A DNA stretch of 64,000 nucleotides from Sulfurospirillum sp. (lineage in GTDB: Bacteria > Campylobacterota > Campylobacteria > Campylobacterales > Sulfurospirillaceae). Below, one piece after another: positions 10,407 to 59,660 of this stretch. The first letter of the stretch is position 1. Each line of letters begins with the position of its first letter. A model generated the notes under the pieces. That model worked only from the letters and a program-made list of their open reading frames with translations, searched no databases and had not been told where the DNA came from. The stretch spans positions 62,001 to 126,000 of the forward strand of contig JACUTU010000002.1 in assembly GCA_014859685.1 (NCBI GenBank), written 5' to 3'. Both the position numbers and the translations under genes were made by a program.

Positions 10407-11020
10407 TGAATACGGTAAAAGTATTGCGATGTAGAGTCTTTTGGCTCTACATCGTAGCTTCTTTATTTCTTGCAAGTACACTCAGTGCAAATTTTGTTTT
10501 AGTAAATGATAATGTCTTAAACGATAAAGTTACAACAAAAATAGAAGAAATGGCAAATGAACTCCACGCACAGACAGGCATAAGTGCTTATGTTGCGGCG
10601 CCAAAAACGCTGGAACAAGTTGGTATTGTTGCGTATGCACAGCAAATGATTCCACAAATGAAAAAACCTTTTGTATTGCTCACGATTGCTAAAAATGATC
10701 ATCAAGTTGATATTTTTCATTCACAAGAACTTGAGGGAAAGTACGACAAAGAAGCGATTTTGAGTCCCTATCCTTGGAGGGGAACTATCATCCCTTTGCT
10801 TACAGGCAAAAAAGATAATGACCAATATAACGCAGCTACACTCAATGGATTTGCTGATTTGGTTGAACGCATCGCAAAAACATATGGCGTTTCGCTACAA
10901 AGTGCTTTGGGAAATACAAATAGAAATATTCTTTTTATTGTAAAGATAGGAATTTATGGATTTTTACTCTTTGTAATTGTTGGATATTATTTAAAAAAAG
11001 TGAGAAGAAAAAATGTCTAA
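10406..11020 (+). CDS. TPM-like periplasmic domain protein with C-terminal membrane anchor
   Basis: 204 residues from ATG 10406, coupled to the stop of the 33-residue peptide. It has an N-terminal signal or anchor (VFWLYIVASLFLASTLSA), a periplasmic domain (about 25-165) and a C-terminal membrane helix (IGIYGFLLFVIVGYYLKK). The pattern FVLVNDNVLNDKVTTKIEEMANEL and the later IDIFHS segment resemble TPM/repair-type domains seen in the cco clusters of Campylobacterota. Its job is unknown; the place in the operon suggests oxidase biogenesis. The end overlaps fixH by eight bases. Confidence 0.7.
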   Translation: MNTVKVLRCRVFWLYIVASLFLASTLSANFVLVNDNVLNDKVTTKIEEMANELHAQTGISAYVAAPKTLEQVGIVAYAQQMIPQMKKPFVLLTIAKNDHQVDIFHSQELEGKYDKEAILSPYPWRGTIIPLLTGKKDNDQYNAATLNGFADLVERIAKTYGVSLQSALGNTNRNILFIVKIGIYGFLLFVIVGYYLKKVRRKNV

Positions 11021-11510
11021 AAGTTCAAAATTAGAAAGCAATTACTGGCCACACGCAATAATAACCATGATACTTTTAACCATAGGTGCGTGTGCATGGA
11101 CAATACAAATAGCTTTAGATAATCCTGTTGAAATGGATAGTTTTTATCTTGAGAAACACCAAAGTGTTGAGCGAAATATCAATGAAATAAATGCAAATCA
11201 AGAAAAATTTGACGCAAATTATGCGATCAAGCATGAAAGTGTAAAGTTTTCTATGAATCAAGAAAATAGTGTCATATTTTCCATTATTGATAAAAGTGGC
11301 AAAGTTGTAGAAAACGCTAAGATACGACTCATGATTTCCCGACCTGAGACAAATAAATTTAACCAAGAATTTACGCTAGAGAAAGCTACAAATGGCAAGT
11401 ATTCAGTTAATGGCATACAAGCGATTAAACCAGGCCGCTGGCAAGTTCTTACGCGAATTAGTTTAGATGGAATCGAAGCTTTTAATAAGTACGAAGTTTT
11501 TGCAAATTAA
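11013..11510 (+). CDS. FixH-family cbb3 oxidase assembly protein
   Basis: 165 residues: one N-terminal membrane helix (HAIITMILLTIGACAWTIQIAL) and a periplasmic domain with beta-rich sequence ending in an immunoglobulin-like segment (IRLMISRPETNKFNQEF, GRWQVLTRISLDG). FixH/CcoH proteins bind the oxidase during assembly and help copper insertion. The NPVEMDSFY motif after the helix is characteristic. It is the last gene of the cco transcript; a 16-bp palindrome TACTTACATGTAAGTA follows at 11565. Confidence 0.85.
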   Translation: MSKSSKLESNYWPHAIITMILLTIGACAWTIQIALDNPVEMDSFYLEKHQSVERNINEINANQEKFDANYAIKHESVKFSMNQENSVIFSIIDKSGKVVENAKIRLMISRPETNKFNQEFTLEKATNGKYSVNGIQAIKPGRWQVLTRISLDGIEAFNKYEVFAN

Positions 11511-22908: not shown

Positions 22909-25900
22909 ATGGCAAAAGTCATGAAAACGATGGATGGTAATGAAGCTGCTGCTCATGTATCCTACGCATTTACAGAAGTAGCTGGTATCTATCCAATTAC
23001 TCCAAGCTCGCCAATGGCAGATTTCACAGATATGTGGGCTGCACAAGGAAAAAAAAATCTTTTTGGAATGCCTGTAAAGATAATTGAATTACAAAGTGAA
23101 GGTGGAGCTGCTGGTACAGTACACGGATCATTGCAAGCAGGCGCTTTAACAACAACTTATACAGCTTCTCAAGGGTTGCTTCTTAAAATTCCAAATATGT
23201 ACAAAATAGCTGGTCAATTACTTCCAGGCGTTATACATGTAAGCGCAAGAACACTTGCTACACACGCACTTTCTATCTTTGGAGATCATCAAGATATTTA
23301 TGCTACTCGTCAAACAGGTTTTGCTATGCTTGCCACAAGTAGTGTGCAAGAAGTTATGGACTTAAGTGGAGTTGCCCATCTATCCGCTATAAAAGGCCGT
23401 GTTCCATTTTTGCATTTCTTTGATGGTTTTAGAACTTCACATGAAATTCAAAAAATTGAAGTGATGGATTATGCACATTTTGATAGACTTATAGACTATG
23501 AAGCAGTACAAGCATTTAGAGATGCATCACTCAACCCAGAGTCGCCAAAAACTCGTGGAACTGCTCAAAATGATGATATTTACTTTCAAGGAAGAGAAGC
23601 ACAAAATAAATTCTACGATGCACTTCCTGATATTGTTGCTGATTATATGAAAGAGATTTCAAAAATTACCGGCCGCCAATATAAACCATTTACATATTAT
23701 GGTGCACCAGATGCTGAGAGAATTATTGTAGCGATGGGTTCAGTTGTTGAGGCTACTCGTGAAACAGTTGATTATCTCAATGCAAAAGATGAAAAAGTAG
23801 GATTACTTGTTGTGCATCTTTACAGACCATTTAGTGCAAAATATTTCTTTGATGTTCTTCCGGATACTGTGAAAAAAGTAGCCGTACTTGATAGAACAAA
23901 AGAAGCTGGATCGGTTGGTGAGCCATTGTATTTAGATGTTAGAAGTATCTTTTATGGTAGGGCAAATGCTCCTGTAATTGTAGGCGGACGGTATGGTCTT
24001 TCATCAAAAGATGTGAATCCAGCACAAATGCTTGCTATTTATGATGAACTCAAAAAAGATGCTCCTAAAAATAACTTTACAGTAGGTATCGTTGATGATG
24101 TTACGCATACTTCACTTGATGTTGGAGAAAATGTTTCTTTAGGTGGAGAGGGTGTAAAAGAGTGTTTGTTTTATGGTCTTGGAGCTGATGGTACCGTCGG
24201 TGCCAATAAAAACTCTGTAAAAATTATTGGTGATAAAACAAATCTTTATGCACAAGCTTATTTTGCATATGACTCTAAAAAATCAGGCGGTTACACAAGA
24301 AGTCACCTCCGTTTTGGACCACACCCAATTCGATCAACTTATCTCGTAAGCACTCCAGATTTTGTAGCATGTTCTGTTGCTGCATACCTTGATCTTTATG
24401 ACATGATAGGCGGTTTGAAAAAAGGTGGAACATTCTTACTGAACTCTATCTGGTCAGTCGAAGAAACAGTAAAACGAATTCCAAATCACATCAAAAAAAC
24501 ACTAGCAGATAAAGACGCAAAATTTTATATCATTAACGCAACAAAATTAGCTAGAGACATCGGACTAGGCAATAGATCAAATACGATTATGCAATCAGCG
24601 TTCTTTAAGTTAGCACAAATTATTCCTTTTGAAGAAGCACAAAGCTATATGAAAGAATACGCATATAAAGCGTACATAAAAAAAGGTGAAAAAATTGTTG
24701 AGATGAATTACAAGGCAATCGATACTGGTGCAAATGGACTTGAGCAAGTGCCAGTAGATCCAGCTTGGTCAAATCTCTCAATACAAACAGCTGCAGTAGA
24801 AGACAAGTATGTAGGAACAGCATTTGTTGAGCGAATTGCAAAACCAATTAATGCAGCAAAAGGTGATAGTTTACCTGTTTCAGCTTTTAAAGATTATGAA
24901 GATGGTTCTTTTGAAAATGGCACAACACAGTATGAAAAACGCGGTGTTAGCGTTATGGTTCCAAAATGGATTGAAAGCAACTGTATCCAATGTAACCAAT
25001 GTTCATTTGTTTGCCCACATGCAGTTATCAGACCATTCTTAATCAATGATGAAGAGTTGGAAAAAGCACCAGCTGGCGTGAAAAACCATGTACTCGATGC
25101 AAAAGGTAAAGAACTGAAAGGATTTAAATACAAAATCCAAGTTTCAGATCTTGATTGTACTGGCTGTGAACTCTGTACTGAAATATGCCCAACATCAGAA
25201 AAATCTCTTGTTATGGTTCCACTTGAAGAGGAACTCAATGCAGGCGAGCAAGAAAATGCGGATTATCTATTTAATGATGTTCGCTATAAAGATGACATTG
25301 TTTCGAAAACAACAGTTAAAGGCTCACAATTTGCAAAACCACTTTTTGAATTCCACGGTGCATGCCCAGGTTGTGGCGAAACTCCATATATAACTCTTGC
25401 AACGCAACTCTTTGGTGAGAGAATGATGATCGCAAATGCAACTGGATGTTCTTCAATCTATGGTGGTTCAGCTCCATCAACTCCGTATGTAAAAAATCAA
25501 AATGGAGAAGGTCCGGCTTGGGGTAACTCACTATTTGAAGACAATGCAGAGTTTGGTTTGGGTATGCGTGTTGCTGATGAAACATTGCGACATCGCATCG
25601 AAAATATCATGCTTGACACTATTGAAACTGTACCAAATTCTCTTAAAGCTTTGTATAAAGATTGGATTGAATTTAAGGCTGATGGCAAGAAAACACAAGA
25701 GATCAGAGATAGGCTTGTACCAATTCTTGAAGCAAACAAGGATCTTGCAGGTGTAAAAGATATACTCAGTATCAAACGGTATCTTGTAAAAAAATCACAA
25801 TGGATTATTGGTGGTGATGGCTGGGCTTATGATATTGGTTTTGGTGGTCTTGACCATGTACTTGCAAGTGGCGAAGATGTAAATGTGCTTGTATTGGATA

Positions 25901-26466
25901 CCGAAGTGTATTCAAATACAGGCGGTCAAAGTTCAAAATCATCTCGAACAGGATCTATAGCGCAATTTGCAGCTTCTGGTAAAGCTATGCAGAAAAAAGA
26001 TCTAGGCTACATTGCGATGACTTATGGCAATATCTTTATAGCTCAGGTTAATTCAAATGGCTCACAAGCACAACTTGTAAAAGCTATGGAAACTGCTGAA
26101 GCTTACGATGGTCCATCGTTGATTATTGCGTACTCCCCATGTATTGCTCATGGTATAAAAGGCGGTTTGGGAAAATCTGGAAATCAAGGTGAACTTGCTA
26201 CCAAATGTGGTTACTGGCCACTTTATACTTACGATCCGCGATTGATAAAAGAGGGTCAAAACCCTATCAAAATCACCGGAAAAGAGCCTAACTGGGACAT
26301 GTATCAAGACTTCTTAATGAATGAAGTACGATATGCGGCGCTCAAAAAATCGAATCCAGAACATGCAGATGCACTTTTTGCAAAAAACAAAGCAGATGCA
26401 CAAAGACGCTGGAGACAACTCAAACGAATGGCTGAAGCTGATTATGGCAATGAGGCAGAAGCGTAA
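22909..26466 (+). CDS. Pyruvate:ferredoxin (flavodoxin) oxidoreductase, single chain
   Basis: 1185 residues, the full length of the NifJ/PorA-type fused enzyme. It oxidises pyruvate to acetyl-CoA and CO2 with reduction of ferredoxin or flavodoxin, or runs in reverse for carbon fixation. Domain order: pyrimidine-binding domain (GIYPITPSSPMAD), gamma domain, two [4Fe-4S] motifs CIQCNQCSFVCP and CTGCELCTEICP (about residues 690-765), then the thiamine domain with CPGCGET, GDGWAYDIGFGGLDH and the metal-binding EVYSNTGGQSS. Monocistronic between an AT-rich promoter region and a clear terminator. Key to anaerobic or reductive carbon flow. Confidence 0.97.
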   Translation: MAKVMKTMDGNEAAAHVSYAFTEVAGIYPITPSSPMADFTDMWAAQGKKNLFGMPVKIIELQSEGGAAGTVHGSLQAGALTTTYTASQGLLLKIPNMYKIAGQLLPGVIHVSARTLATHALSIFGDHQDIYATRQTGFAMLATSSVQEVMDLSGVAHLSAIKGRVPFLHFFDGFRTSHEIQKIEVMDYAHFDRLIDYEAVQAFRDASLNPESPKTRGTAQNDDIYFQGREAQNKFYDALPDIVADYMKEISKITGRQYKPFTYYGAPDAERIIVAMGSVVEATRETVDYLNAKDEKVGLLVVHLYRPFSAKYFFDVLPDTVKKVAVLDRTKEAGSVGEPLYLDVRSIFYGRANAPVIVGGRYGLSSKDVNPAQMLAIYDELKKDAPKNNFTVGIVDDVTHTSLDVGENVSLGGEGVKECLFYGLGADGTVGANKNSVKIIGDKTNLYAQAYFAYDSKKSGGYTRSHLRFGPHPIRSTYLVSTPDFVACSVAAYLDLYDMIGGLKKGGTFLLNSIWSVEETVKRIPNHIKKTLADKDAKFYIINATKLARDIGLGNRSNTIMQSAFFKLAQIIPFEEAQSYMKEYAYKAYIKKGEKIVEMNYKAIDTGANGLEQVPVDPAWSNLSIQTAAVEDKYVGTAFVERIAKPINAAKGDSLPVSAFKDYEDGSFENGTTQYEKRGVSVMVPKWIESNCIQCNQCSFVCPHAVIRPFLINDEELEKAPAGVKNHVLDAKGKELKGFKYKIQVSDLDCTGCELCTEICPTSEKSLVMVPLEEELNAGEQENADYLFNDVRYKDDIVSKTTVKGSQFAKPLFEFHGACPGCGETPYITLATQLFGERMMIANATGCSSIYGGSAPSTPYVKNQNGEGPAWGNSLFEDNAEFGLGMRVADETLRHRIENIMLDTIETVPNSLKALYKDWIEFKADGKKTQEIRDRLVPILEANKDLAGVKDILSIKRYLVKKSQWIIGGDGWAYDIGFGGLDHVLASGEDVNVLVLDTEVYSNTGGQSSKSSRTGSIAQFAASGKAMQKKDLGYIAMTYGNIFIAQVNSNGSQAQLVKAMETAEAYDGPSLIIAYSPCIAHGIKGGLGKSGNQGELATKCGYWPLYTYDPRLIKEGQNPIKITGKEPNWDMYQDFLMNEVRYAALKKSNPEHADALFAKNKADAQRRWRQLKRMAEADYGNEAEA

Positions 26467-35474: not shown

Positions 35475-36257
35475 ATGGACATCTCTTCAAACCTGATTTT
35501 AGGTAAAGCAGATCAGCCTTTTTTGCTTGAAAAACGCATTGAACTTTTGCATGCTATAGAACAGGAAGGGTCTATTTTAAAGGCTGCCAAAGCGGTTCCT
35601 ATGAGCTACAAAAGTGCTTGGGAAGCGATAGATACTATGAATAATCTCTCATCTTCACCGATTGTTATACGAGAAACCGGTGGTGTCGGTGGTGGAGGAA
35701 CGAGACTCACTCCTTATGGAAAAAATCTATTAGAAACTTACGAGATATTCAAAAAAGAACAGGCAAAGTTTTTGAAAAAATTGATGCTCTTAGCAGACAT
35801 GGACAAAGGAACAATAAAAACAATAAGGAGGCTTTCGATGCATATAAGTGCAAGAAACCAGCTATTTGGCAAAATCGATGATATCAAAACTTCACATGTA
35901 AGTGCTGAGGTTAGCATAGTTTTAAAAAGTGGTATTGTGTTGGTTTCAAATATCACAAAAAGTGCGGTAGAGGAGTTGGGATTGGAGGTTGGTGATGAGG
36001 TGGTTGCTATTATCAAAGCAAGTTCCGTGATGATAACAACGGTGCTTGATTTTGAAACAAGTGCAAGAAATAAACTCATTGGAACTATAACCCATATCAA
36101 AAGAGGAGATGTTAATTCACAAGTGAGCGTGGATGTTGGCGACAATGATGTTGTAGTTGCTACTATCACGACAGGTTCGGTTGAGACATTGGGTTTAGAG
36201 CTTGGTTTAAAAGTGTGTACACTCATAAAATCAAGTAATATCATCATAGGCAAATAA
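35475..36257 (+). CDS. modE: ModE-type molybdate-responsive regulator
   Basis: 260 residues. The N-terminal winged helix (about 1-110) has the ModE/LysR-like HTH (EQEGSILKAAKAVPMSYKSAWEAIDTMNN) and GGVGGGGTRLTPYGKNLLETYE. Two tandem TOBE (molybdate-binding) domains follow (about 125-190 and 195-260), starting SARNQLFGKI and SARNKLIGTI. With molybdate bound it represses transporter genes. First gene of the mod operon, with AAGGA before the ATG and an operator just upstream, indicating autoregulation. Confidence 0.93.
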   Translation: MDISSNLILGKADQPFLLEKRIELLHAIEQEGSILKAAKAVPMSYKSAWEAIDTMNNLSSSPIVIRETGGVGGGGTRLTPYGKNLLETYEIFKKEQAKFLKKLMLLADMDKGTIKTIRRLSMHISARNQLFGKIDDIKTSHVSAEVSIVLKSGIVLVSNITKSAVEELGLEVGDEVVAIIKASSVMITTVLDFETSARNKLIGTITHIKRGDVNSQVSVDVGDNDVVVATITTGSVETLGLELGLKVCTLIKSSNIIIGK

Positions 36258-36265
36258 GAAAAAAA

Positions 36266-37015
36266 ATGTTAAAAAAAGTAGTTTTAGTTTTATTGTTTTT
36301 GGCAAGCAGTGTAATGGCAGGAAGTATCAATATAGCAGTTGCAGCAAATGTGAGCTATGCGATGGATGCACTTATATCAAAGTTCAATGAATCAAATCCA
36401 GATACGAAAGTCCAAGTCACTCTTGGTAGTAGTGGCAAGCTCACAGCGCAGATAAAAAATGGTGCTCCATACCAAGTTTTTTTATCAGCAAATATGAAAT
36501 TTCCGCAAGCTTTGTATGATGCAAATATAGCCATCACAAAACCTATTATTTATGCCCAAGGCTCCCTTGCGATGCTCAGTGACAAAAAGATTGATTTTAC
36601 ACAAGGTATCGATGTGATTACGCAAGATTCTGTTGCTAAAATAGCGATTGCAAATCCACAAACAGCTCCTTATGGAAAAGCGGCACTTGAAGCTATCACT
36701 AAAAAAGGCTTGCTTGAGCGGACTGAGAAAAAATTTGTTTATGCAGAGTCGATTACACAAACAGTTGCTTATGCACTCACAGCCGCTGACATAGGCTTCA
36801 TTGCAAAATCATCATTATACTCATCAAAGATGCAACAATACAAACAAAATGAGCATTGGGTAGAAGTGGATGCCACACTTTACACTCCGATAGACCAAGG
36901 CATAGTGATACTCAAAAATGCAACTGAAAACCAAGAGGCAAAGGCATTTTATGATTTTATCCTCTCAGAAAGTGCAAAAGTTATTTTTAGAAAATTTGGG
37001 TATATGGTGCCATGA
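36266..37015 (+). CDS. modA: Molybdate-binding periplasmic protein
   Basis: 249 residues with a signal peptide (KKVVLVLLFLASSVMAG). ModA features: INIAVAANVSYAMDALISKF, VTLGSSGKLTAQIKNGAPYQVFLSANMKFPQAL, and ANPQTAPYGKAALE. It captures molybdate or tungstate for ModBC. The stop overlaps the TOBE gene start by four bases. Confidence 0.95.
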   Translation: MLKKVVLVLLFLASSVMAGSINIAVAANVSYAMDALISKFNESNPDTKVQVTLGSSGKLTAQIKNGAPYQVFLSANMKFPQALYDANIAITKPIIYAQGSLAMLSDKKIDFTQGIDVITQDSVAKIAIANPQTAPYGKAALEAITKKGLLERTEKKFVYAESITQTVAYALTAADIGFIAKSSLYSSKMQQYKQNEHWVEVDATLYTPIDQGIVILKNATENQEAKAFYDFILSESAKVIFRKFGYMVP

Positions 37016-37404
37016 ATTATCTTGATGGCGTAGTGAGTAACATTGAAAATTGTGATAGCCTTCATATCGTCGAATTTGCAGTGGAAAACGAACATCTCTA
37101 TATGATGAGTTTGGAGATACCAACGATACATGTAGGTCTACATGTAAGGCTTGCCATCAAGCCTTTGAGCATCGCAATAGCCAAGAGATTTTTAGGTTCT
37201 ATCAGCTTTTCAAACAAGCTTTTTGCAACCGTCAAACAGATCAGCGAAGGGGTTCTTTTGTGCAGTGTAAAGTTAGATTTTAAAACCCATGAACTCGAGG
37301 CTGTGTTGCGTAAAAAAGCATTAGAAAATATGCATCTTAAAGTTGGTGATTCGGTAGTGCTTTTTATCAAGGCAAGTGATGTGTTTATTAAAGAGGTGTT
37401 ATGA
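37012..37404 (+). CDS. TOBE-domain molybdate-binding protein
   Basis: 130 residues. Two TOBE-like halves; the second is clearer ([36 protein letters not shown]). Similar small proteins act as molybdate stores or accessory sensors (ModG/Mop type). It lies between modA and modB with overlaps on both sides, so it is part of the uptake operon. The coding sequence contains two copies of TACATGTA almost back to back (about 37128 and 37140). The first half is divergent. Confidence 0.75.
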
Positions 37405-38087
37405 TGTTTGAGAACTTAGAATTTGCTCCATTTATCCTCTCTTTTAAACTAGCTGGCATTACGACAGCTATACTTTTTACGCTTTCTCTTCCTCTTGCTT
37501 GGTGGCTCTCTCAAAGCAAATCCAAAATCAAATCTTTTATAGAAGCTGTTACCGCTTTGCCTATCGTTTTGCCCCCATCTGTTTTGGGATTTTATATCTT
37601 GTGGGCGCTCTCTCACAACTCTCCTATTGGGGCTTTTTTTGATGAAATTTTTGGGATAAAGCTCGTGTTTAACTTCACAGGACTTGTGGTTGCAAGTTGT
37701 TTTTACTCTTTGCCTTTTATGGTGCAACCACTCCAAGGAGGCTTTGAGAGTTTGAACAAAAATATGCTTGAAGCTTCTTATATCAGTGGTAAGAGTAGGT
37801 TGAAAACACTTCTAAGAGTTGCGTTGCCAAATATCAAGCCAGCACTCCTCAGTGCCATCATCATCACTTTTGCACATACCGTTGGTGAATTTGGTGTGGT
37901 CTTGATGGTGGGTGGAAGTATCCCTGGTGAAACAAAAGTGGCTTCAGTTGCGATTTACGAGATGGTGGAAATCATGGATTATACGAGCGCACATATCTAT
38001 AGCGCTATCATGGTGAGTATTAGCTTTTTGGTGCTTTTGAGTGTGTATATTTTTAACAAAAGATATGTCAAAAAGGTTGGCTTGTGA
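37401..38087 (+). CDS. modB: Molybdate ABC transporter permease
   Basis: 228 residues, five to six membrane helices. Binding-protein-dependent permease with the EAA-like loop [30 protein letters not shown] and [16 protein letters not shown] near the start, [22 protein letters not shown] as in ModB/CysT. ATG 37401 or 37404. The stop overlaps modC. Confidence 0.95.
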
Positions 38088-38938
38088 TACATATAGATAT
38101 CCAAAAAATGCTACATGGCTCAAGTGGACAGATGCTCTTGGGTGTGGACTTGAAGATAAAACAGGGCGATTTTGTTGCACTTGCTGGGCGTAGTGGAAGC
38201 GGAAAAACAACTTTGCTTCGCATTTTAGCAGGCTTAGAGAGTGCAAGCGGAGAGATAAAAGTAGGTGATGAGATATGGCAAGATAAGCTTACATGTAAGA
38301 GTGTCCAAAAAAGAGGGATAGGTTTTGTTTTTCAAGATTATGCACTCTTTGCCAATATGAGCGTCATAGAAAATCTTTTGTTTGTGCAAAAAGATAAAGC
38401 CCTTGCAAAACATCTTTTAGAACTTACAGAACTTGAGGAATTGCAAGATAGACTCCCCTCCACGCTCAGTGGTGGACAGCAACAAAGAGTGAGTTTGTGT
38501 CGAGCCTTGATGAATCGTCCCAAAATCCTCCTCATGGATGAGCCACTCTCCGCACTTGATCCATTCATGAGAGCAAAACTGCAACAAGAGATACTCATCC
38601 TCCATAAAGAGTTTCAAACAACCACTATCATGGTGAGCCACGACCCAAGCGAAATGTACCGTTTAGCTAATCGAGTAGTGGTTTTGGAAAATGGAAAAAT
38701 CATTCAAGACGGCAGTGCGAAAGATGTTTTGCTCAAAACAAGTGGAAGCCAAAAATTCTCTTTTGAAGGTGAGATTTTGGATATCAAAAAGATAGATGTG
38801 ATCTATGTTGCCATCATTTCGATAGGGCAGCAAATAGTGGAAGTAGTTGTAAGCGAAAATGAAGCAAAAAATTTACATGTAGAACAAATCGTCAGAGTTG
38901 GTACAAAAGCATTTGCACCAACAATATCTTCAAGGTAG
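38084..38938 (+). CDS. modC: Molybdate ABC transporter ATP-binding protein
   Basis: 284 residues from GTG 38084, overlapping modB. Walker [17 protein letters not shown]-loop [13 protein letters not shown], signature [16 protein letters not shown], Walker [14 protein letters not shown] and H-loop VSHDP are present. The C-terminal regulatory region (about 225-284) is a short TOBE-like domain rather than the full length seen in E. coli ModC. Confidence 0.95.
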
Positions 38939-51034: not shown

Positions 51035-51094
51035 TGTACACCTTATTTATTCTTAATTGCTATTATATCAGATAAGAAATTAATAGAGGTTTTG

Positions 51095-51673
51095 ATGAAT
51101 AAGATAGTAGATATTTTTTACTCCTTGCAAGGCGAGGGGACTTTTGTGGGAACTCCTAGCATCTTTATACGGTTTTATGGATGCAATTTAGAGTGTTCTT
51201 TTTGCGATGATATAAAACACACGGAATCTTTTGAGCATTTTAGCAATGAGGAGCTTTTGCAAAAGATACAGGGCTTTACATGTAAGCAAGTTGTAATAAC
51301 GGGCGGAGAGCCAAGTATCTATAATCTCAATGCTTTTATAGAGTTTTTGCAAGCATATGGATACTTTGTTTGCGTTGAAAGTAATGGCTTCAAATTTGCC
51401 AATATACAAAGTGCAAATTGGATAACTTATAGTCCAAAAGATTGGGATACGATAGCGCTTAAGGGATGTGATGAGTACAAATTCATCGTCTCGTCTGCAA
51501 GTAAAGTGGACAAAATTTTGGCATTACAAACAAACAAACCGATTTTTATACAGCCACAAAATGATTTTCTCACTGCCAATGCCACAAATGTCAAGTACTG
51601 TATAGAATTAGTCAAAGCACATTCACGCCTCAGACTAAGTGTGCAATTGCACAAGTATTTAGGCGTAGAATAG
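51095..51673 (+). CDS. queE: 7-carboxy-7-deazaguanine synthase (radical SAM)
   Basis: 192 residues from ATG 51095 with TAGAGG upstream; the open frame extends further upstream but overlaps queD. Radical SAM enzyme of queuosine synthesis: YSLQGEGTFVGTPSIFIRFYGCNLECSFCD contains the CxxxCxxC cluster site, then VITGGEPSIYN. Short form without extra domains. Converges on the hydrogenase-like operon. Confidence 0.94.
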   Translation: MNKIVDIFYSLQGEGTFVGTPSIFIRFYGCNLECSFCDDIKHTESFEHFSNEELLQKIQGFTCKQVVITGGEPSIYNLNAFIEFLQAYGYFVCVESNGFKFANIQSANWITYSPKDWDTIALKGCDEYKFIVSSASKVDKILALQTNKPIFIQPQNDFLTANATNVKYCIELVKAHSRLRLSVQLHKYLGVE

Positions 51674-51681
51674 ATTTATTA

Positions 51682-52431
51682 TCACAATTTTCCTAGATAA
51701 TTAAGCAAAGCATGCAGTGTAGTGTATGGGTGTGGCGGACATCCAGGAATGTAGAGATCTACATGTAAGAGCGTATCAAGTCCTTGTGAACAAACATCGT
51801 TTGCGTGAAAAATACCGCCACTAATCGCACAAGCACCTGAGGCTATGACTATTTTTGGCTCGCTAATCGCTTCATAAGTTCGCAATAACGGCTCTCGCAT
51901 ATGTTCATTGATGGGACCTGTAACGATGATACCATCGCTATGTCTTGGAGATGCTGCGAAACTAATGCCAAAGCGAGCAAGATCATAAGTTGGCGTTCCT
52001 AAAACATTGAGATCGGCTTCACAAGCATTACATCCTCCCGCACTTATCTGCCTTAGCTGTAAGGATCTGCCAAAAAGTGCTCTAATCTCTCGCTTGACTA
52101 GCATACCTATATGTTCTATCTCACCGCTTACATGTAAAGCTTCACGGCTTGTTTGGGCTAAGCGGTATTCATTTGAAAACGAGATTACTCCCTCCTCGCA
52201 CACATCTTCACAATCTTTACAAAAGATGCAACGCCCTAAATCAATCATAGGTTTAGTTTCTAGTTTTATAGCATCACTTGGGCAGATATCTTTACATGCA
52301 GTACAATTTGTAGCACAAGCTCCTTTAATCTGCGGAGTGCCTACAAATCGAGGTGAGAGTATTGGTGCAACTTTAGGAAATGCACTTGTGTTGTATCCTT
52401 GAATCCAGCGTTCTTTGAGTATAAAAAACAT
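51682..52431 (-). CDS. Fused ferredoxin-NuoB-like small subunit of the Ehr/hydrogenase-4-like complex
   Basis: 249 residues that join two proteins usually separate in hydrogenase 4 (HyfH and HyfI). Residues about 38-95 form a two-cluster ferredoxin: CATNCTACKDICP and CIFCKDCEDVC. Residues about 110-249 are the NuoB/HyfI-like small subunit with all four proximal-cluster cysteines (GGCNACEAD, SGACAISGG, IPGCPPHP). It would carry electrons to the catalytic-like subunit. Last gene of a six-gene minus-strand operon, nine bases after the large subunit. Confidence 0.9.
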   Translation of the reverse strand: MFFILKERWIQGYNTSAFPKVAPILSPRFVGTPQIKGACATNCTACKDICPSDAIKLETKPMIDLGRCIFCKDCEDVCEEGVISFSNEYRLAQTSREALHVSGEIEHIGMLVKREIRALFGRSLQLRQISAGGCNACEADLNVLGTPTYDLARFGISFAASPRHSDGIIVTGPINEHMREPLLRTYEAISEPKIVIASGACAISGGIFHANDVCSQGLDTLLHVDLYIPGCPPHPYTTLHALLNYLGKL

Positions 52432-52440
52432 TATATTTCC

Positions 52441-53931
52441 TTAGAGATCGAAGCCACAATAAGAGAGATTGAAGCTTTTATTGCAGAGTGGAAAATCAGA
52501 GATTTGCCCATCACGCATTGCAAGAGAGAGTGCGGTCCAATTGAAAAAAGAGGGATCAACTACTTTATATCGTTGTATGTCGCCCTTGTCGTCTGTGATT
52601 ATAGTATGTGCTACGCCGCCACGCCATCCCTCGCTCATCGAAAATGAAAAATACTCTGCCGGCAAAGCTGTATTTTGTTGCTTTTGAATTTGTACATGTG
52701 CGATCATTTCTAATTCTTTGAGGAGTGTTTGCACAAGTTCAAAACAGATAAGTATCTCCTCTTTACGCACTTTTGCTCTAGCAAAAACATCGCCACTTTT
52801 TTCTAAACTAGTTTTGAGATCACGATCTATATAGCTACCATATGGATAGGATGTTCTCACATCACGCAAACAATTAGAAGCTTTTGCTACTAAACCTGTA
52901 AAACCATAGGCCATAACCCATTCTTGGGGAATGATACCTGTTTTTTCAAGACGATCTAAAACACTCGGTGAGCGAAAAAAAAGCTCTATTGCGCCCATGA
53001 TTTTTGGTTGCAATGCTTTGAGTTGTGTTTTGAGTGTTTGTGCGAGTGCATAATCAATATCATATCTAGTGCCACCGATGCAGATACCACCTCTGCCAAA
53101 ACGATTTCCCGTAATCTGTGCTGTGAGATTGAGGATATTCCCACGCAATTTACCACAATATGAAGCGGTTGTTAAAAAAGCAACATCCCCTGAAAGTGCG
53201 CCGATGTCACCTACATGATTTGCGATGCGTTCAAGTTCCAAAAGAATAGCTCGAATAAGCGCCTCTTTTTCAGAGATTTTGATGCCCGTGAGCGCTTCCA
53301 TATTTTGCGCATAACATGTGCTATGCGCAGTAGTAGAGTCGCCACAGAGTGCTTCTACTTGTTTGAGATGATTTGCTTTTGGCATGCCGAGTAAAGCTTT
53401 TTCTACTCCTCTATGTTGGTATCCCAAGGAGATTTCAAGATGTCCAACTTTTTCGCCGTAGCATTGAAAACGAAAATGTCCCGGTTCAATAATCCCCGCA
53501 TGCACAGGTCCAACGGCTACTTCGTGGATATCTTCACCCTCGATACTATAAAAATCCATCTGCGAACATGCGCTTTGATGAGGAGAGCGAACAGGCTTGA
53601 GCCATGGATGGTTCCGTGGCAAAATGCCGCTTTGCTCATAAATCTCTCGCTCAAATAGATGGATGCAAGATAAAAGTTCAGTGCGAGATGTGTATGCGTT
53701 ATCAACCACTCTAAATCGTCCAACTTTAATGAGTCCCGTTGCATCATTGCCTAAGACAATCCAGATTTGCCATGTTTGTTTTAGGCTTGCACTAAAGAGG
53801 CTTAATACGCGAAATTGTTCCTCATTTACGGCTAAAATAACTTTGTCCCAAAAGAGATCTTCGCTCAAAAGTGGGATCGCATCTATGGGTGAGGCAAATG
53901 GATTAGTAAAAAAAGGTTTAAAATCCTCCAT
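52441..53931 (-). CDS. Large subunit of the complex (NuoC-NuoD fused) lacking normal nickel ligands
   Basis: 496 residues: a NuoC-like N-terminal domain (about 1-115) fused to a NuoD/HyfG-like domain. The first metal motif reads ALCGDSTTAHSTCY, where active group 4 enzymes have CGICxxxH, so the second Cys is replaced by Ser. The C-terminal motif reads NKSFNLSYCGFDL, where active ones have C-Y-x-C, so the pair is displaced or lost. The nickel-iron site is therefore unlikely to form. AGGAGG lies five bases before ATG 53931. It overlaps the upstream NuoN-like gene. Confidence 0.88.
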   Translation of the reverse strand: MEDFKPFFTNPFASPIDAIPLLSEDLFWDKVILAVNEEQFRVLSLFSASLKQTWQIWIVLGNDATGLIKVGRFRVVDNAYTSRTELLSCIHLFEREIYEQSGILPRNHPWLKPVRSPHQSACSQMDFYSIEGEDIHEVAVGPVHAGIIEPGHFRFQCYGEKVGHLEISLGYQHRGVEKALLGMPKANHLKQVEALCGDSTTAHSTCYAQNMEALTGIKISEKEALIRAILLELERIANHVGDIGALSGDVAFLTTASYCGKLRGNILNLTAQITGNRFGRGGICIGGTRYDIDYALAQTLKTQLKALQPKIMGAIELFFRSPSVLDRLEKTGIIPQEWVMAYGFTGLVAKASNCLRDVRTSYPYGSYIDRDLKTSLEKSGDVFARAKVRKEEILICFELVQTLLKELEMIAHVQIQKQQNTALPAEYFSFSMSEGWRGGVAHTIITDDKGDIQRYKVVDPSFFNWTALSLAMRDGQISDFPLCNKSFNLSYCGFDL

Positions 53932-55336
53932 AAACACCTCCTAATAATTGTGTAGCTTCAAGCAAGACTTGTGATACGAATGAGGGCATATAAAGACCGA
54001 TAAAAGCCACGATGCCTAAGAAAAGAAAGGGACTCACAAACATAAAAGAGCGTTCATGAAACCTTTGCATACCAGTAGGCGGCTTACCGCGAACAACCCC
54101 TAGGATGGTGCGGCTCATACCAAAAAAAGCGATAACTAAACCAAAGATGAGTGCAAAAAATAGCAAGATAGAATAAGAAAATGTACCTTGAATGATATGA
54201 AAAATGGATACAAAACTTCCAAAAGGAGGTGTTCCTACGATCGCAAAGAGAGCAATTAGCAGGGCAAAAGCACTATATGGCATGATACGAATTGCTCCAG
54301 AAATGCCTTTCGCATCTCGCGTACCAAAAACTCTTTTGACATTGCCAAGGGCGATAAAAACAGTGCCTTTAAGTAAAGCATTGTTAAAAAGATGGTACAT
54401 AGCCGCCCAAATACCAGCACCGCCTAAGCCAAAGCCAATGGCGATAAGCCCCATCTGTTCTACGCTTGAATATGCCATCAGTCTTTTGGTGTCATTTTGT
54501 TTGAGCATAGAAAATGCACCGAAAAGCACCGAAAGAATACCAAATACGATCAAGGCATCACGCATACAAGCTTCTTGATGTGCTGCGTGCATGATCTGCA
54601 TCAAGCGCATCATAGCAAGCCATGAAAGTGTTGTCATGCCACCAGCCATCAATGCCCCAAACAATCCAGGTTCTTCACTATAAGCATCAACTTTCCAAAG
54701 ATGCAGAGGAAAAAGTCCGATTTTGGTTGCAAAGCCTATAAAGATGAAAACAAAAGCGATGAGAAACCATGTTGTGTTAAACTCTTCTGCTCTTGCAAAA
54801 AGTGTGAAAAAATCAAGATCCATATGTTCGATATTTGCAATCAGTGAAGAGTAAGCTAAAAATAAAATCCCAATAAGTGCGAGTAAAATTCCGATGGAAA
54901 CTAAGAAGAGGTATTTCCAAGTTGCTTCGATGGAGCCTTTATTTTTTGTGTAGTAGATGAGCGGCGCACACGAGAGTGAGGAGGATTCGAGAAAAATCCA
55001 CATACTAATGAGATCTTTGGCCATCATCATGCCAGTTGCAAAAAATAAAAACAGATGTAAACTGATGATAACTACAAGATTGGAATTATCCTTCAAACAA
55101 TGTGAAAAATATCCAATAGCGTGCAGAGCAATGCCTCCAAAAAGCAGTGAGAGTGTAACTAAAATCCAGACCGAAAGCGCGTCCATGCCACTATTTTGTC
55201 CAAGCAATACAACAAAGCTCATGCTTACATGTAACAAAGCAGTGATCCCTAAAATCACAGCTCTTTGATGATTTGTTTTGCCAAAATAGCTCAAGCCTAT
55301 TGCTAAAAGTGTCCAGATAAAAAAAGCTATGAGCAT
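53918..55336 (-). CDS. NuoN/HyfF-like antiporter-type membrane subunit
   Basis: 472 residues, about 14 membrane helices. Proton-translocating module of the complex I antiporter family: MDALSVWILVTLSLLFGGIALHAIGY, ATKIGLFPLHLWKVDAYSEEPGLFGALMAGGM, KRLMAYSSVEQMGLIAIG and FNNALLKGTVFIALGNV are the conserved segments with the key Lys and His. Lies between the HyfE-like and large subunit genes. Confidence 0.92.
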   Translation of the reverse strand: MLIAFFIWTLLAIGLSYFGKTNHQRAVILGITALLHVSMSFVVLLGQNSGMDALSVWILVTLSLLFGGIALHAIGYFSHCLKDNSNLVVIISLHLFLFFATGMMMAKDLISMWIFLESSSLSCAPLIYYTKNKGSIEATWKYLFLVSIGILLALIGILFLAYSSLIANIEHMDLDFFTLFARAEEFNTTWFLIAFVFIFIGFATKIGLFPLHLWKVDAYSEEPGLFGALMAGGMTTLSWLAMMRLMQIMHAAHQEACMRDALIVFGILSVLFGAFSMLKQNDTKRLMAYSSVEQMGLIAIGFGLGGAGIWAAMYHLFNNALLKGTVFIALGNVKRVFGTRDAKGISGAIRIMPYSAFALLIALFAIVGTPPFGSFVSIFHIIQGTFSYSILLFFALIFGLVIAFFGMSRTILGVVRGKPPTGMQRFHERSFMFVSPFLFLGIVAFIGLYMPSFVSQVLLEATQLLGGVYGGF

Positions 55337-55337
55337 T

Positions 55338-55982
55338 TTATTCCTTCAGCATTGTAAGCAGTTTGCCACTATCTTCATCATCAAAAATAGAAGCGATATG
55401 ATTGAGTACGACACCCATGATAAAAACTCCAGCAAGTGCATCGAGCAAAACGCCTATTTCTGTTAAAAAAGTCATCGAATCCGTGAGCATGGAGCTGAGG
55501 ATAAACACCGCATTTTCCATGATCAAATACCCGATAACATGTGTCACTGCTTTTTGTCTTGCGATCACTAAAAGCATGCCACCTAAAAGGGTTGCAAAAA
55601 AGATTGGCACGATGATACTCTCTTTATGTTCGCTCAGCAATGGTAAAGTGGTAGCGATATAAAAAGAGAAGATAACGCATAAACCATAGATGAGCAGTGT
55701 GGGCGTATAGCCTATAAGCGGACGCATCTCTTGATCGATGGAAACTTTTCGCACAACTCTTATGAGCAAATAGGGCATTACAAAACCTTTGATAACTATG
55801 ATAATGCTAAAGAGTAATGCTTCTGTGTTATTGGTTTCTTTTGATAAAAACGCTAAAAGAACGAGTAAAACACCTTGAAAAGCAATGGCACGGATCGCAC
55901 TTATTATGCGATTGCTTCCCATGACATACATGTTTATTAAAACGGTTATCAGTAAAAAACTATTCATAAGTGAGATATTCAT
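55338..55982 (-). CDS. HyfE/NuoK-like membrane subunit
   Basis: 214 residues, six to seven membrane helices. Resembles hydrogenase-4 subunit E, an enlarged NuoK relative: IIIVIKGFVMPYLLIRVVRKV, VIGYLIMENAVFILSS with the membrane-buried Glu, and DALAGVFIMGVVLNHI. Overlaps the HyfC-like gene by four bases and is one base from the HyfF-like gene. Confidence 0.88.
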   Translation of the reverse strand: MNISLMNSFLLITVLINMYVMGSNRIISAIRAIAFQGVLLVLLAFLSKETNNTEALLFSIIIVIKGFVMPYLLIRVVRKVSIDQEMRPLIGYTPTLLIYGLCVIFSFYIATTLPLLSEHKESIIVPIFFATLLGGMLLVIARQKAVTHVIGYLIMENAVFILSSMLTDSMTFLTEIGVLLDALAGVFIMGVVLNHIASIFDDEDSGKLLTMLKE

Positions 55983-56905
55983 AATGATTGCCTTGTGATC
56001 ATGATAATTCCAAAAAGTGCAATAACAAAAGTACCTAAAAGAATATTTTTGATTGCTACGATACGCAATCTAGCTATGAGCGATTCACAGATCCCCACGC
56101 ACGCAACTACGCCCATCGACACAAAAGCACTCAGCACAAGATCAAGCCAAAAAATATCCGTATGCAATGGCAGTAAAAGATGACTGATAAGCAGGGCAAA
56201 AAGTGTCAATTTTAAAGCAGAGCCGAGCGTGATGAGTCCCAATAATGGCCCACTGTGATCAAGCACCATCACCTCATGTACCATGGTAAGTTCAAGGTGT
56301 GTGTTTGGATCATCAAAAGGAACACGAGAATTCTCGGCGAGCATCACTACAAAAAGTGAAAAAACAACGATAGTAAGCACAGTGCTGTCGTGTGTCCATG
56401 AGGTGAATGAGTGGATGCCAAAGAGATTTTCTAAGGCAAGAGAGTTTGAGATTTTTGCAAGTATAATAAAACAGACAAATAAAATAGGCTCAATCAAAAC
56501 AGAAAAAGTTATCTCTCTAGCCCCACCCATACCCTCAAAACTTGAGCCTGTGTCAAGAGCACTAGCAACTGTGAAAAATCGTAAGAGTGCAAAAAGGTAA
56601 AGAAAAAGTATAAAATCACCCTCAAAAGAGATGAGTGCATGCACAGAGCCAAAAGGAACCATGGCAAATGCAATCAAAGGCACGAGAACACTCAAAAAAG
56701 GTCCAGCAAAAAATATCCACGAAGTAGTTGTGCTTAAAGTGATGTCTTTTTGCCATAATTTGATGATGTCATAGAGTTTTTGTAGCACAGGCGCACCTTT
56801 ACGCCCACCAAAAAAAGCTTTGACTTTAGTGATGATACCCATGTTGAGAAGCGAAAGTGCGATAAAGACCGCAAAAATGAGTGCATATTGCCAAAAAATA
56901 TTCAT
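55979..56905 (-). CDS. NuoH/HyfC-like membrane subunit
   Basis: 308 residues, eight helices. Anchors the soluble arm to the membrane: KAFFGGRKGAPVLQKLYDIIKLWQK, and the loop LAENSRVPFDDPNTHLELTMVHEVMVLDHSG with the conserved acidic residues of NuoH and HyfC. Overlaps both neighbours by four bases, so the operon is translated in step. Confidence 0.94.
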   Translation of the reverse strand: MNIFWQYALIFAVFIALSLLNMGIITKVKAFFGGRKGAPVLQKLYDIIKLWQKDITLSTTTSWIFFAGPFLSVLVPLIAFAMVPFGSVHALISFEGDFILFLYLFALLRFFTVASALDTGSSFEGMGGAREITFSVLIEPILFVCFIILAKISNSLALENLFGIHSFTSWTHDSTVLTIVVFSLFVVMLAENSRVPFDDPNTHLELTMVHEVMVLDHSGPLLGLITLGSALKLTLFALLISHLLLPLHTDIFWLDLVLSAFVSMGVVACVGICESLIARLRIVAIKNILLGTFVIALFGIIMITRQSL

Positions 56906-58869
56906 AAGAAACTCACATATAAAAGCATCACAATAAGTGTTGCTAAGATATACAATACATATAATCCCATGTAGCCATTGTGTACGAAAGCGCGTAAGCG
57001 ATTGGCAAAAGATTGTATCGCAAGCCCCATAAAGTTGAGTGCAGCGATATTTTTGTCATCAAAATGTAGATGGAAATTCAATGATTTTGGAAAAAGACCA
57101 GAAATCTCAAAGAGATGTCGTTTGCCCTTAAACATCCATCCATAATACTCTAAAAGCATCTGCGCAAGTGAACCTGCTGTATATTGTGCTCTTTTTGGTG
57201 GTGCGTGGTAGCCACATCCCCAAGTGCCAACACATTTACTCGATTTTTTAGAAAGTTTGAGCCAAAGTACCGTGATAACTACCACCGCAAGCGGCAAAAT
57301 ATATAGATATGCTTCACTAAGATCTTGCAAAGCAAGCAGAGAAATTTCAGGTGTACTGACTCCAAATAAAACAGCGACACTAAAGAGCATTTGCATCATT
57401 AAAAATGGCATCAATCCAAGTACTATGCAGATAAATGCAATCACACCCATAGGCAACAACATCCAACGCGATGATTCGTGTATCCCCTCAAGTGAGATAT
57501 CCCGAGGTGTACCTAAAAATGTTGCACCAAAGACTTTTATGAAACATGCAAGTGCGAGAGTGCCAATAGTAGCGAGACCTAAAATGCCAAGCAAAAGGAT
57601 GATCATTTGCTGGCTTGCAAAGATATTTTTAAACATGCCTAGATATAAAAGCCATTCGCTTGCAAAACCATTAAGCGGCGCAATGCCCACAATTGCTACA
57701 GCACCTATGAGAAAAAACAAAGCAGTGTAGGGCATCACGCGCAATATTCCTCCAAAAGCAGCAATATTTCGTGTATGAAACGCTTCGATTACAGAACCGG
57801 CACTGTAAAAAAGAAGTGGTTTAAACAAGGAATGGTTGAGTACATGAAAAACAGCCCCAGCAATTCCAAAAAGCATTAAGCTTTGATTGCCATAACTCTG
57901 CCCTAGCATCGCCATGCCTATACCTATCATAATAATGCCGATATTTTCGATACTATGGTAGGCCAAAAGGCGTTTAATATCGTGTTGCGCAATAGCATAA
58001 ATTACGCCTAGAAGTCCTGATATGATTCCAATGATAAAAAGTAGCCATCCCCACCAGTGAGGCGGTTGTGCAAATAAAAGACAGATGCGAAGTATCCCAA
58101 AGATGCCCATCTTGATCATCACGCCAGAAAGCAAAGCCGAAACAGAAACCGGGGCATTTGCATGTGCTGATGGAAGCCAAAAATAGAGTGGAAAAATGCC
58201 GGCTTTGAGTCCAAAACCAAACAAACCCAATAGAAAAATGATACTCGCCACACTACTGTTTTGATCGATAATGTGCCAAGAAGCACTGAGCGTTGTCACA
58301 CCAAAATAAGTATATAAAAGACCAAAAACACCCAAAAGTGCAATGACACCTGTGTGTGTAGCGATGATGTAGATAAATCCAGCTTCGTTAGCTTCTTTGT
58401 CATCTTCATCGATGCTGATGAGTCCATAAGCTAATAGCGACATCATCTCCCATGCGAGCAAAAACAGCATAAAACTATCAGAAATAACCAATAAAACCAT
58501 AGAAAAAGTAAAGAGTCCAAAAAGTAAACGATAATACCAAGAAGCCCGTACGCCTCTATGCTCATACGAATAATAACTCAAGCCATACAAACAACTAGCG
58601 CTACTGATGAGAAGAATCGAGAGAAGAAAAAATGCACTCAAGGCATCGCAATGCAAGACAAGCGTTTGCCCTAAAAGAGAAAATGGAAAGGTTACATGTA
58701 GGGCTATTGGGTTTTGAAAAAAGTTTATAACAAAGCCTAAGCCAAACAATGCGCCGATGATATGCAAAAGAGCGCCTAATTTTTCAGACATAGCTATATG
58801 GTTGCGAAAAAAAATCGGTATAAAAGCTGATATGAAGATGAAAAATAGAGAAAAATATAATAATATCAA
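56902..58869 (-). CDS. NuoL/HyfB-like antiporter-type membrane subunit
   Basis: 655 residues, about 15 helices; first gene of the operon. Antiporter core with LLAWEMMSLLAYGLISIDE, LKAGIFPLYFWLPSAHANAPVSVSALLSGVMIKMG, DIKRLLAYHSIENIGII and LNHSLFKPLLFYSAGSV. The C-terminal part has GTWGCGYHAPPKRAQYTAGSL, typical of HyfB. Together with the HyfF-like subunit it gives the complex two ion-pumping modules. Confidence 0.94.
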   Translation of the reverse strand: MILLYFSLFFIFISAFIPIFFRNHIAMSEKLGALLHIIGALFGLGFVINFFQNPIALHVTFPFSLLGQTLVLHCDALSAFFLLSILLISSASCLYGLSYYSYEHRGVRASWYYRLLFGLFTFSMVLLVISDSFMLFLLAWEMMSLLAYGLISIDEDDKEANEAGFIYIIATHTGVIALLGVFGLLYTYFGVTTLSASWHIIDQNSSVASIIFLLGLFGFGLKAGIFPLYFWLPSAHANAPVSVSALLSGVMIKMGIFGILRICLLFAQPPHWWGWLLFIIGIISGLLGVIYAIAQHDIKRLLAYHSIENIGIIMIGIGMAMLGQSYGNQSLMLFGIAGAVFHVLNHSLFKPLLFYSAGSVIEAFHTRNIAAFGGILRVMPYTALFFLIGAVAIVGIAPLNGFASEWLLYLGMFKNIFASQQMIILLLGILGLATIGTLALACFIKVFGATFLGTPRDISLEGIHESSRWMLLPMGVIAFICIVLGLMPFLMMQMLFSVAVLFGVSTPEISLLALQDLSEAYLYILPLAVVVITVLWLKLSKKSSKCVGTWGCGYHAPPKRAQYTAGSLAQMLLEYYGWMFKGKRHLFEISGLFPKSLNFHLHFDDKNIAALNFMGLAIQSFANRLRAFVHNGYMGLYVLYILATLIVMLLYVSFL

Positions 58870-58985: not shown

Positions 58986-59660
58986 ATGTCAAATGCCCTT
59001 GTGGTTTTTAGTGGAGGACAAGATAGTACAACTTGTTTGGGTTGGGCTAAAAGTCGTTTTGAAAAAGTTGAAACGCTTACTTTTGATTATGGACAAAAGC
59101 ACCGTGTTGAAATTTATCAAGCAAAAAAGATAGCACAGCTTTTGGGAATTGAAAATTTTGTTTTAAAATTTGATGCTTTCTCGCAACTTGGCGATTCTGC
59201 ATTGATAGATAGTGGAATGGATATCTCTAGCGCACATAAACACAAACCAAATCTACCCGCTTCTTTTGTACCCAATCGTAATGCAGTATTTTTTACACTC
59301 GCCCACGCTTATGCACAAAAACAAGGGATAAATCACATCATAACAGGCATAAACCAAACAGATTATTCAGGGTATCCTGATTGTCGGCAAAATTTTATTG
59401 AATCCTTAGAACTCGCACTCAATCTAGGCAGTGAATCGATTATCAAGTTTCATTATCCACTGATTCATTTGAGCAAAGCACAAACATTTTTACTCGCAAA
59501 AGAAACAGGTATTTTAGATATTGTGTTGCAACAATCCCATACTTGTTACAATGGAGATCACAATACTTGGAATGATTGGGGTTATGGATGTGGCATCTGT
59601 CCTGCTTGCATGTTACGGGCAAAAGGCTGGCAAGAATATGAAGAGAAATTCACTAAATAA
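58986..59660 (+). CDS. queC: 7-cyano-7-deazaguanine synthase
   Basis: 224 residues. ATP-dependent conversion of carboxy-deazaguanine to preQ0 in queuosine synthesis. PP-loop VVFSGGQDSTTCLGWA, VPNRNAVFFTLAHAYA, GINQTDYSGYPDCR and zinc Cys in QQSHTCYN and GCGICPACMLRAKGW. A TACATGTA copy is directly before its AGGAACG ribosome site. Sister genes queD and queE lie on the far side of the Ehr-like operon. Confidence 0.97.
   Translation: MSNALVVFSGGQDSTTCLGWAKSRFEKVETLTFDYGQKHRVEIYQAKKIAQLLGIENFVLKFDAFSQLGDSALIDSGMDISSAHKHKPNLPASFVPNRNAVFFTLAHAYAQKQGINHIITGINQTDYSGYPDCRQNFIESLELALNLGSESIIKFHYPLIHLSKAQTFLLAKETGILDIVLQQSHTCYNGDHNTWNDWGYGCGICPACMLRAKGWQEYEEKFTK

Follow-up and report, generated by a model that had tools for sequence, protein, structure and literature searches.

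Energy-converting hydrogenase-related (Ehr) complexes, reportedly described by Marreiros et al. in 2013, are found across many bacterial phyla and mix features of hydrogenases with those of respiratory complex I; the reaction that they perform bears on the origin of quinone respiration. That Ehr complexes lack the ligands of the [NiFe] site has already been stated (PMC6349859, PMC10284858), and their function was called unknown in 2023 (PMC10284858). Here, we analyzed a stretch of 64,000 nucleotides from Sulfurospirillum sp. (GenBank assembly GCA_014859685.1, contig JACUTU010000002.1, positions 62,001 to 126,000; henceforth, the window) that contains an operon of six open reading frames (ORFs) on the minus strand, at positions 51682-58869. 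An earlier note, made from the letters of the window alone, had described the product as an Ehr-type complex that has lost its nickel site and belongs to a kind noted by others, as the two papers above do state. Sequence, gene order and phylogeny agree with this description, and we conclude on sequence grounds that the complex is a Geobacter-type Ehr, i.e., a member of an already described family of unknown function. The reading that we favor, and rate as slightly more likely than not, is that this probably horizontally acquired complex would work as a ferredoxin-linked ion pump with a small, non-quinone partner at the cavity left by the nickel site. What is new here is a set of narrower limits on the Ehr reaction, a candidate regulator, and a variant of the complex without proximal-cluster ligands.

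The window large subunit is homologous to that of group 4 hydrogenases and lacks the two CxxC motifs, and the same operon encodes antiporter, NuoH-like and HyfE-like subunits, the combination that defines an Ehr. Adjacent genes, in the order HyfB, NuoH, HyfE, HyfF, NuoC-D and ferredoxin-NuoB, overlap by at most 20 nt or are separated by at most 9 nt, and thus look like one transcription unit. Matches to Pfam and NCBIfam families (two to Proton_antipo_M, and one each to NADHdh, hydrogenase-4 membrane subunit, Complex1_49kDa, a weak NiFeSe_Hases, Fer4 and Oxidored_q6) bear out each of the six subunit names given in the earlier note. The gene set and order, the ferredoxin-NuoB and NuoC-D fusions, the loss of the nickel ligands and the LSYCG C-terminus are all shared with the Geobacter-type Ehr (Ech-hydrogenase-related complex, GSU0739-0745). 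Using an alignment as the query in a scan of named genomes, we recovered 80 Geobacter-type loci (a single-protein query gave none), with 41-50% identity to the window large subunit, in Geobacteraceae, Desulfobulbales, Myxococcota, Planctomycetota, Verrucomicrobiota, Lentisphaerota, Elusimicrobiota, Spirochaetota, Melainabacteria and others; apart from loci truncated at a contig end, almost every one shows the same gene order together with the ferredoxin-NuoB fusion. Compared to these relatives, the six-gene window operon has neither the second HyfB nor the HTH-EIIA gene that many of them carry, lies between queE and queC, and has C198 where they have Ala or Ser. By maximum likelihood, the window protein and its counterparts from two genomes of the same family, G228 and G405, form one clade (support 100) inside the Geobacter type and outside the hydrogenases; this clade stands beside one Myxococcota and one Desulfobulbus sequence (support 83-90). 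The tree sets Ehr apart from Hyf, Ech and Nuo, with long branches that leave the deep order unsure. In the family to which the window belongs, 4 of 44 genomes carry Geobacter-type Ehr. Other members of the phylum carry an Ehr type of their own (28 of 397 sampled genomes; L036-L063), which shares with the window complex the six-gene order, the loss of all nickel ligands and an NKSxxLSYxGxD C-terminus, but is ~28-36% identical, forms a separate clade, and has a small subunit without a ferredoxin domain and Ala in place of C494. The small subunit of this second type consists of the NuoB domain only, and most loci show no evident gene for a ferredoxin-like subunit, leaving one evident iron-sulfur cluster. 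One of them (L037, G330:C27:83000-102000) contains two different Ehr operons in tandem, one of which is a long, divergent branch.

The large subunit, EhrL (52441..53937, minus strand, as are all operon features below; 498 aa; PF00346, E 1.4e-35), is a NuoC-NuoD fusion without the [NiFe] ligand set. When aligned with HMMER against solved structures, it scores best with Escherichia coli HycE (PDB 7z0s), and its AlphaFold2 (AF2) model (pLDDT 90.7, pTM 0.93) has HycE of formate hydrogenlyase (7z0s_E) as the best fold match in the PDB. The CGICGFAHS of HycE corresponds to CGDSTTAHS in EhrL, and the distal SLDPCYSC to SFNLSYCG; the four ligand columns are occupied by C198, S201, S492 and G495 rather than by four Cys. 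The proximal CxxC is replaced by CGDS (residues 198-201, 53335..53346) in the alignment with HycE, group 4 hydrogenases and 81 Ehr, and the distal one by LSYCG (residues 491-495, 52453..52467) in the alignment with the DPCYSC of HycE and the 81 Ehr, the same two replacements that had been noted earlier. Among the 81 Geobacter-type relatives, 73 have Ala at position 198, 5 have Ser and 3 have Cys, and therefore, C198 cannot be counted as a retained ligand; at position 201, Thr predominates. C494 misses the ligand column by one residue and is Cys in 79 of the 81, and in the other Ehr type of the phylum, all 29 sequences carry Ser at position 198 and Ala at position 494. A residual metal site composed of C198 and C494 was considered and rejected, because the first of these lacks conservation and the second gives way to Ala in the other type. 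The loss of the nickel site is thus confirmed at the level of the alignment. The missing C-terminal tail, i.e., the maturation-protease extension, was dropped as evidence: EhrL stops three residues past G495, and an Ech-type protein (L064) also appears to end there.

What surrounds the former nickel site is strongly conserved: H146, E151, K487, S492, Y493, G495 and D497 are identical in all 110 Ehr compared, and the EPGHF loop is retained in EhrL. E151 (53485..53487) is the counterpart of the proton-transfer residue E21 of MbhL in MBH and is invariant in Ehr. The retention of this Glu and of the EPGHF loop would suit an enzyme that remains active on H2 as a hydrogenase in spite of changed metal ligands, and a link of Ehr to H2 from formate has been suggested for Geobacter (PMC7894505). 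However, at most one of the four ligand Cys is present and is itself not conserved, whereas the group 4 hydrogenases of related genomes, aligned together with Ehr, have complete motifs with all four Cys; we regard such an enzyme as extremely improbable. Formate hydrogenlyase and hydrogenase 4 (Hyc/Hyf) have the same subunit types, and HycE is the closest solved structure, but unlike them, the window complex has neither [NiFe] ligands nor a formate dehydrogenase subunit (none in the window).

The small subunit, EhrS (51682..52431; 249 aa; PF01058, E 9.8e-28, and Fer4), is a ferredoxin-NuoB fusion in which all 12 cluster Cys are found, as had been claimed: those of cluster A (C39, C43, C46, C78) and cluster B (C50, C68, C71, C74) in the ferredoxin domain (52198..52317), and the ligands of the proximal [4Fe-4S] cluster (C134, C137, C201, C231) in the NuoB domain (51739..52032). 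Cluster B ligands are complete in 77 of 78 sequences. Cluster A ligands are partly or wholly lost in ~15 of the 78, including sequences from Desulfobulbales, Elusimicrobia and Melainabacteria, and this cluster is predicted to be dispensable. Loci with cluster A Cys lost and cluster B intact include L140, L146, L142, L138, L132, L110 and L144. The proximal motif SAGGCNAC aligns without gaps to NSGSCNGC of MBH (subunit MbhJ), and likewise to HycG, with the CxxC kept; by this comparison, the motif is hydrogenase-like and not MBS-like. The likely host group often respires sulfur compounds, which counts in favor of a sulfane-sulfur or polysulfide reductase resembling Pyrococcus MBS. MBS is itself a characterized group 4 relative with a lost nickel site (PMC7684303) and, like the window complex, retains the antiporter module. 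However, the proximal cluster of MBS has one non-Cys iron and a motif three residues shorter than that of MBH, and MBS lacks a counterpart of E21 (PMC7684303); Ehr shows neither change. Moreover, the scores of EhrL against formate hydrogenlyase and MBH are far above that against MBS. Because the proximal cluster is of the hydrogenase type, MBS chemistry is very unlikely.

Respiratory complex I has a homologous fold of the quinone (Q) module and a homologous pump arm, is likewise without [NiFe] ligands, and its CD subunits match the fold of EhrL. The window complex might then be a ferredoxin:menaquinone oxidoreductase, i.e., a short complex I without the NADH module, with the quinone bound in the former nickel cavity; futalosine-pathway genes and a cbb3 oxidase are present in the host. 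Unlike complex I, however, Ehr is without the quinone-site His and Tyr (H38 and Y87 of Nqo4 correspond to I150 and G199 of EhrL), has no NADH module, and carries in NuoB a CxxC of the hydrogenase type where complex I has the CC pair. We surveyed 28 genomes with Geobacter-type Ehr for the futalosine pathway and the MenD route of menaquinone synthesis. Futalosine-pathway genes were detected in 13, each with at least two matches, and MenD above the cut-off in one. The other 14 genomes, i.e., half of the sample, have neither pathway; these come from seven phyla (Melainabacteria, Lentisphaerota, Spirochaetota, Elusimicrobiota, Riflebacteria, Omnitrophota and Planctomycetota). The futalosine matches are bimodal, and no genome has exactly one, which argues against incompleteness of metagenome-assembled genomes (MAGs) as the cause of absence. 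No column of the large-subunit alignment separates menaquinone makers from non-makers, and the cavity motifs are the same in both sets. In line with this, Ehr-like complexes were observed earlier in quinone-free Melainabacteria (PMC3787301) and in Margulisbacteria whose quinone pathway is not complete (PMC6349859). Because the pocket is unchanged in genomes without menaquinone pathways and the Nqo4 residues are missing, quinone is unlikely to be the general Ehr acceptor: it can hardly be a universal partner if the same pocket persists in organisms without a recognizable menaquinone pathway. For the window complex, whose host already has two complex I-like loci, we consider menaquinone reduction a rather unlikely explanation.

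The membrane arm has the charged residues expected of an ion path. In the HyfB/EhrA-like antiporter subunit (56902..58869; 655 aa; NF005086, hydrogenase 4 subunit B, E 3.7e-150; PF00361), E141, K222, K253, K299, K350 and E405 are kept in 96-100% of 115 homologues. In the NuoH/HyfC-like membrane anchor (55979..56905; 308 aa; PF00146, E 5.8e-32), E131, E139, E191, R194, D198, E205, E211 and E274 are kept in 99-100% of 107 homologues, and E117, K205, K284 and K323 of the HyfF-like antiporter subunit (53918..55336; 472 aa; NF005044, E 1.3e-71) are kept in all 114 homologues. The arm also includes a HyfE-like membrane subunit (55338..55982; 214 aa; NF008556, hydrogenase 4 membrane subunit, E 2.7e-17). 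The putative pump residues are thus nearly invariant and intact. According to the reading that we favor, a cytoplasmic carrier of low potential, most likely ferredoxin that has been reduced by pyruvate:ferredoxin oxidoreductase (PFOR) or a similar enzyme, would supply the electrons; these would enter via the fused ferredoxin domain, with cluster B conserved and cluster A optional, and pass to the hydrogenase-type proximal [4Fe-4S] cluster in NuoB. The final acceptor would be small, neither a proton nor a quinone, and would bind in the cavity vacated by the [NiFe] site, with a predicted lining of H146, E151, D200, N486, K487, S492, Y493, C494 and D497, and the redox step would drive H+ or Na+ through the NuoH-HyfE-HyfF-HyfB arm. 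Ferredoxin is a plausible donor because its domain is fused to NuoB and the cluster B ligands are conserved. The earlier note had derived the same donor from the presence of PFOR in the window; the PFOR gene is real (22909-26466), but it lies ~25 kb from the operon and is not linked to it, so that its presence in the window is no evidence of a connection. As to the acceptor, which had been left unclear, the evidence added here speaks against a quinone as well as against sulfur chemistry of the MBS type. This leaves a small acceptor from the cytosol or, should the complex operate in the reverse direction, a small donor. It is possible, although we would put this forward only tentatively, that Ehr performs a redox reaction new for the complex I superfamily, between ferredoxin and a small partner from the cytosol, other than H+, a quinone or sulfane sulfur, at an invariant H/E/D/K/S/Y set in the emptied [NiFe] cavity and under dedicated HTH-EIIA control in many phyla.

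Several points weigh against the ferredoxin-linked pump with a partner at the cavity. We know of no purified Ehr, and thus, every functional step above had to be inferred. The AF2 model, which lacks the partner subunits, gives poor definition to the loops where the nickel site used to be: pLDDT is below 50 at cavity residues 145-150 and 494-498. Most of the genomes that lack menaquinone genes are MAGs, for which no completeness is stated, and species living in the gut could obtain quinones by scavenging. In four relatives, most or all of the proximal-cluster Cys are replaced. The ligand motifs are GNAAE, GAE and PGW in L117 (Planctomycetales, 10459-11253), GSGAE, GAE and PGW in L139 (Verrucomicrobiota, 10446-11288), GDGSV, GTC and PGW in L102 (Verrucomicrobiota, 5179-5976), and GDGSA and GTS in L201 (Planctomycetota), where the last ligand is past the contig end; all four Cys are gone in two of these relatives. 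L139 and L102 are sister sequences (support 98), and the Cys-to-Glu and Cys-to-Trp changes are common to L117 and L139, though the tree does not place these two near each other. All four relatives retain intact ferredoxin clusters and an intact cavity motif, and no second NuoB-like ORF was found in the loci L117, L139 and L102. The proposed electron route to the cavity is broken in these relatives, and therefore, the cavity may serve some purpose other than electron transfer. The conserved cavity might accordingly be a coupling or ion path rather than a redox site, with the redox chain ending at the ferredoxin domain, where a soluble partner might dock; the other Ehr type of the phylum, with the cavity motif but no ferredoxin domain, would fit as well. 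Conversely, the great majority of sequences retain the proximal cluster, and no soluble partner gene recurs near the operon, and we find this explanation highly improbable. Ehr proteins rise with formate in Geobacter sulfurreducens (PMC7894505), such that another donor may dock, and a unit of formate dehydrogenase and Ehr has been proposed (PMC6349859). Finally, the complex could run in reverse (PMC3787301), with ion motive force driving ferredoxin reduction and a donor at the cavity. Complexes of this kind are reversible in principle, and this mode was proposed for Melainabacteria, which need reduced ferredoxin and are without Rnf (PMC3787301); however, none of the lineages examined has a gene for a donor linked to the operon, and the host PFOR can already supply reduced ferredoxin, which makes the reverse mode quite unlikely here.

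Clustering of the neighbors of the 28 phylum-type and 80 Geobacter-type loci revealed no recurrent dehydrogenase, flavoprotein or ferredoxin; only a gene with HTH_17 and PTS_EIIA_2 domains (HTH-EIIA) recurs in the operon. It flanks 35 (tblastn) to 38 (blastp) of the 80 loci (range L069-L148; for example, L114:3231-3950), is located just upstream of, or within, the antiporter part, and often overlaps the next gene by a few nt. A single close copy was found in each of eight such genomes. The gene is absent from the genome of the window and from G228 and G405, and in a partial coverage of the literature, we found no published report of it. Its product is a candidate dedicated Ehr regulator. A 5.5-kb insert between the large and small subunit genes of one phylum-type locus (L050, genome G061) contains cytochrome-type and two-component genes and was rejected as a conserved partner. 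SulP-family transporter genes were seen next to or near Ehr in a few lineages (L035:15822-17687, L168:2277-3971, L093, L111 and L147); such a gene stands beside Ehr in G228 and G405, and tblastn detected it in only 3 of the 80 other loci.

The operon was probably acquired horizontally. It lies between queE (51092..51673, plus strand), which is convergent with it, and queC (58986..59660, plus strand; TIGR00364), which is divergent from it, whereas in the congener G377, queE is followed by queC at a distance of ~256 nt; in G228 and G405, the Ehr operon is located elsewhere. The GC content of the operon is 40.2%, ~4 standard deviations (SD) above the mean of equal-size windows (35.9%, SD 1.0). 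Acquisition is the simplest reading of this insertion relative to G377 together with the raised GC content. The host genome contains no group 4 hydrogenase, and G377 has a Hyf hydrogenase and no Ehr, which makes the host a useful test case. The Hyf of Sulfurospirillum is thought to dispose of PFOR-derived ferredoxin electrons as H2 (PMC6242987). Given this reciprocal presence of the two complexes, it is possible that Ehr acts at the PFOR-ferredoxin branch point where relatives use the H2-evolving Hyf. The absence of formate dehydrogenase and hydrogenase maturation genes near the operon, as stated in the earlier note, holds: HypD and a [NiFe] hydrogenase locus are on another contig (C7), and molybdopterin oxidoreductases are on C7, C8, C12 and C20, with neither in the window. 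One of the latter (G000:C8:25467-26819) has one in-frame TGA and is possibly a selenocysteine formate dehydrogenase, far from the operon.

Elsewhere in the window, an apparent molybdate-transport cluster (ModE-like regulators, ModA, permease and ATPase) is located at 35475-38938, and in the segment 41968-44036, a gene resembling those of DNA cytosine methyltransferases follows another gene, of unknown type, that may be its restriction partner.

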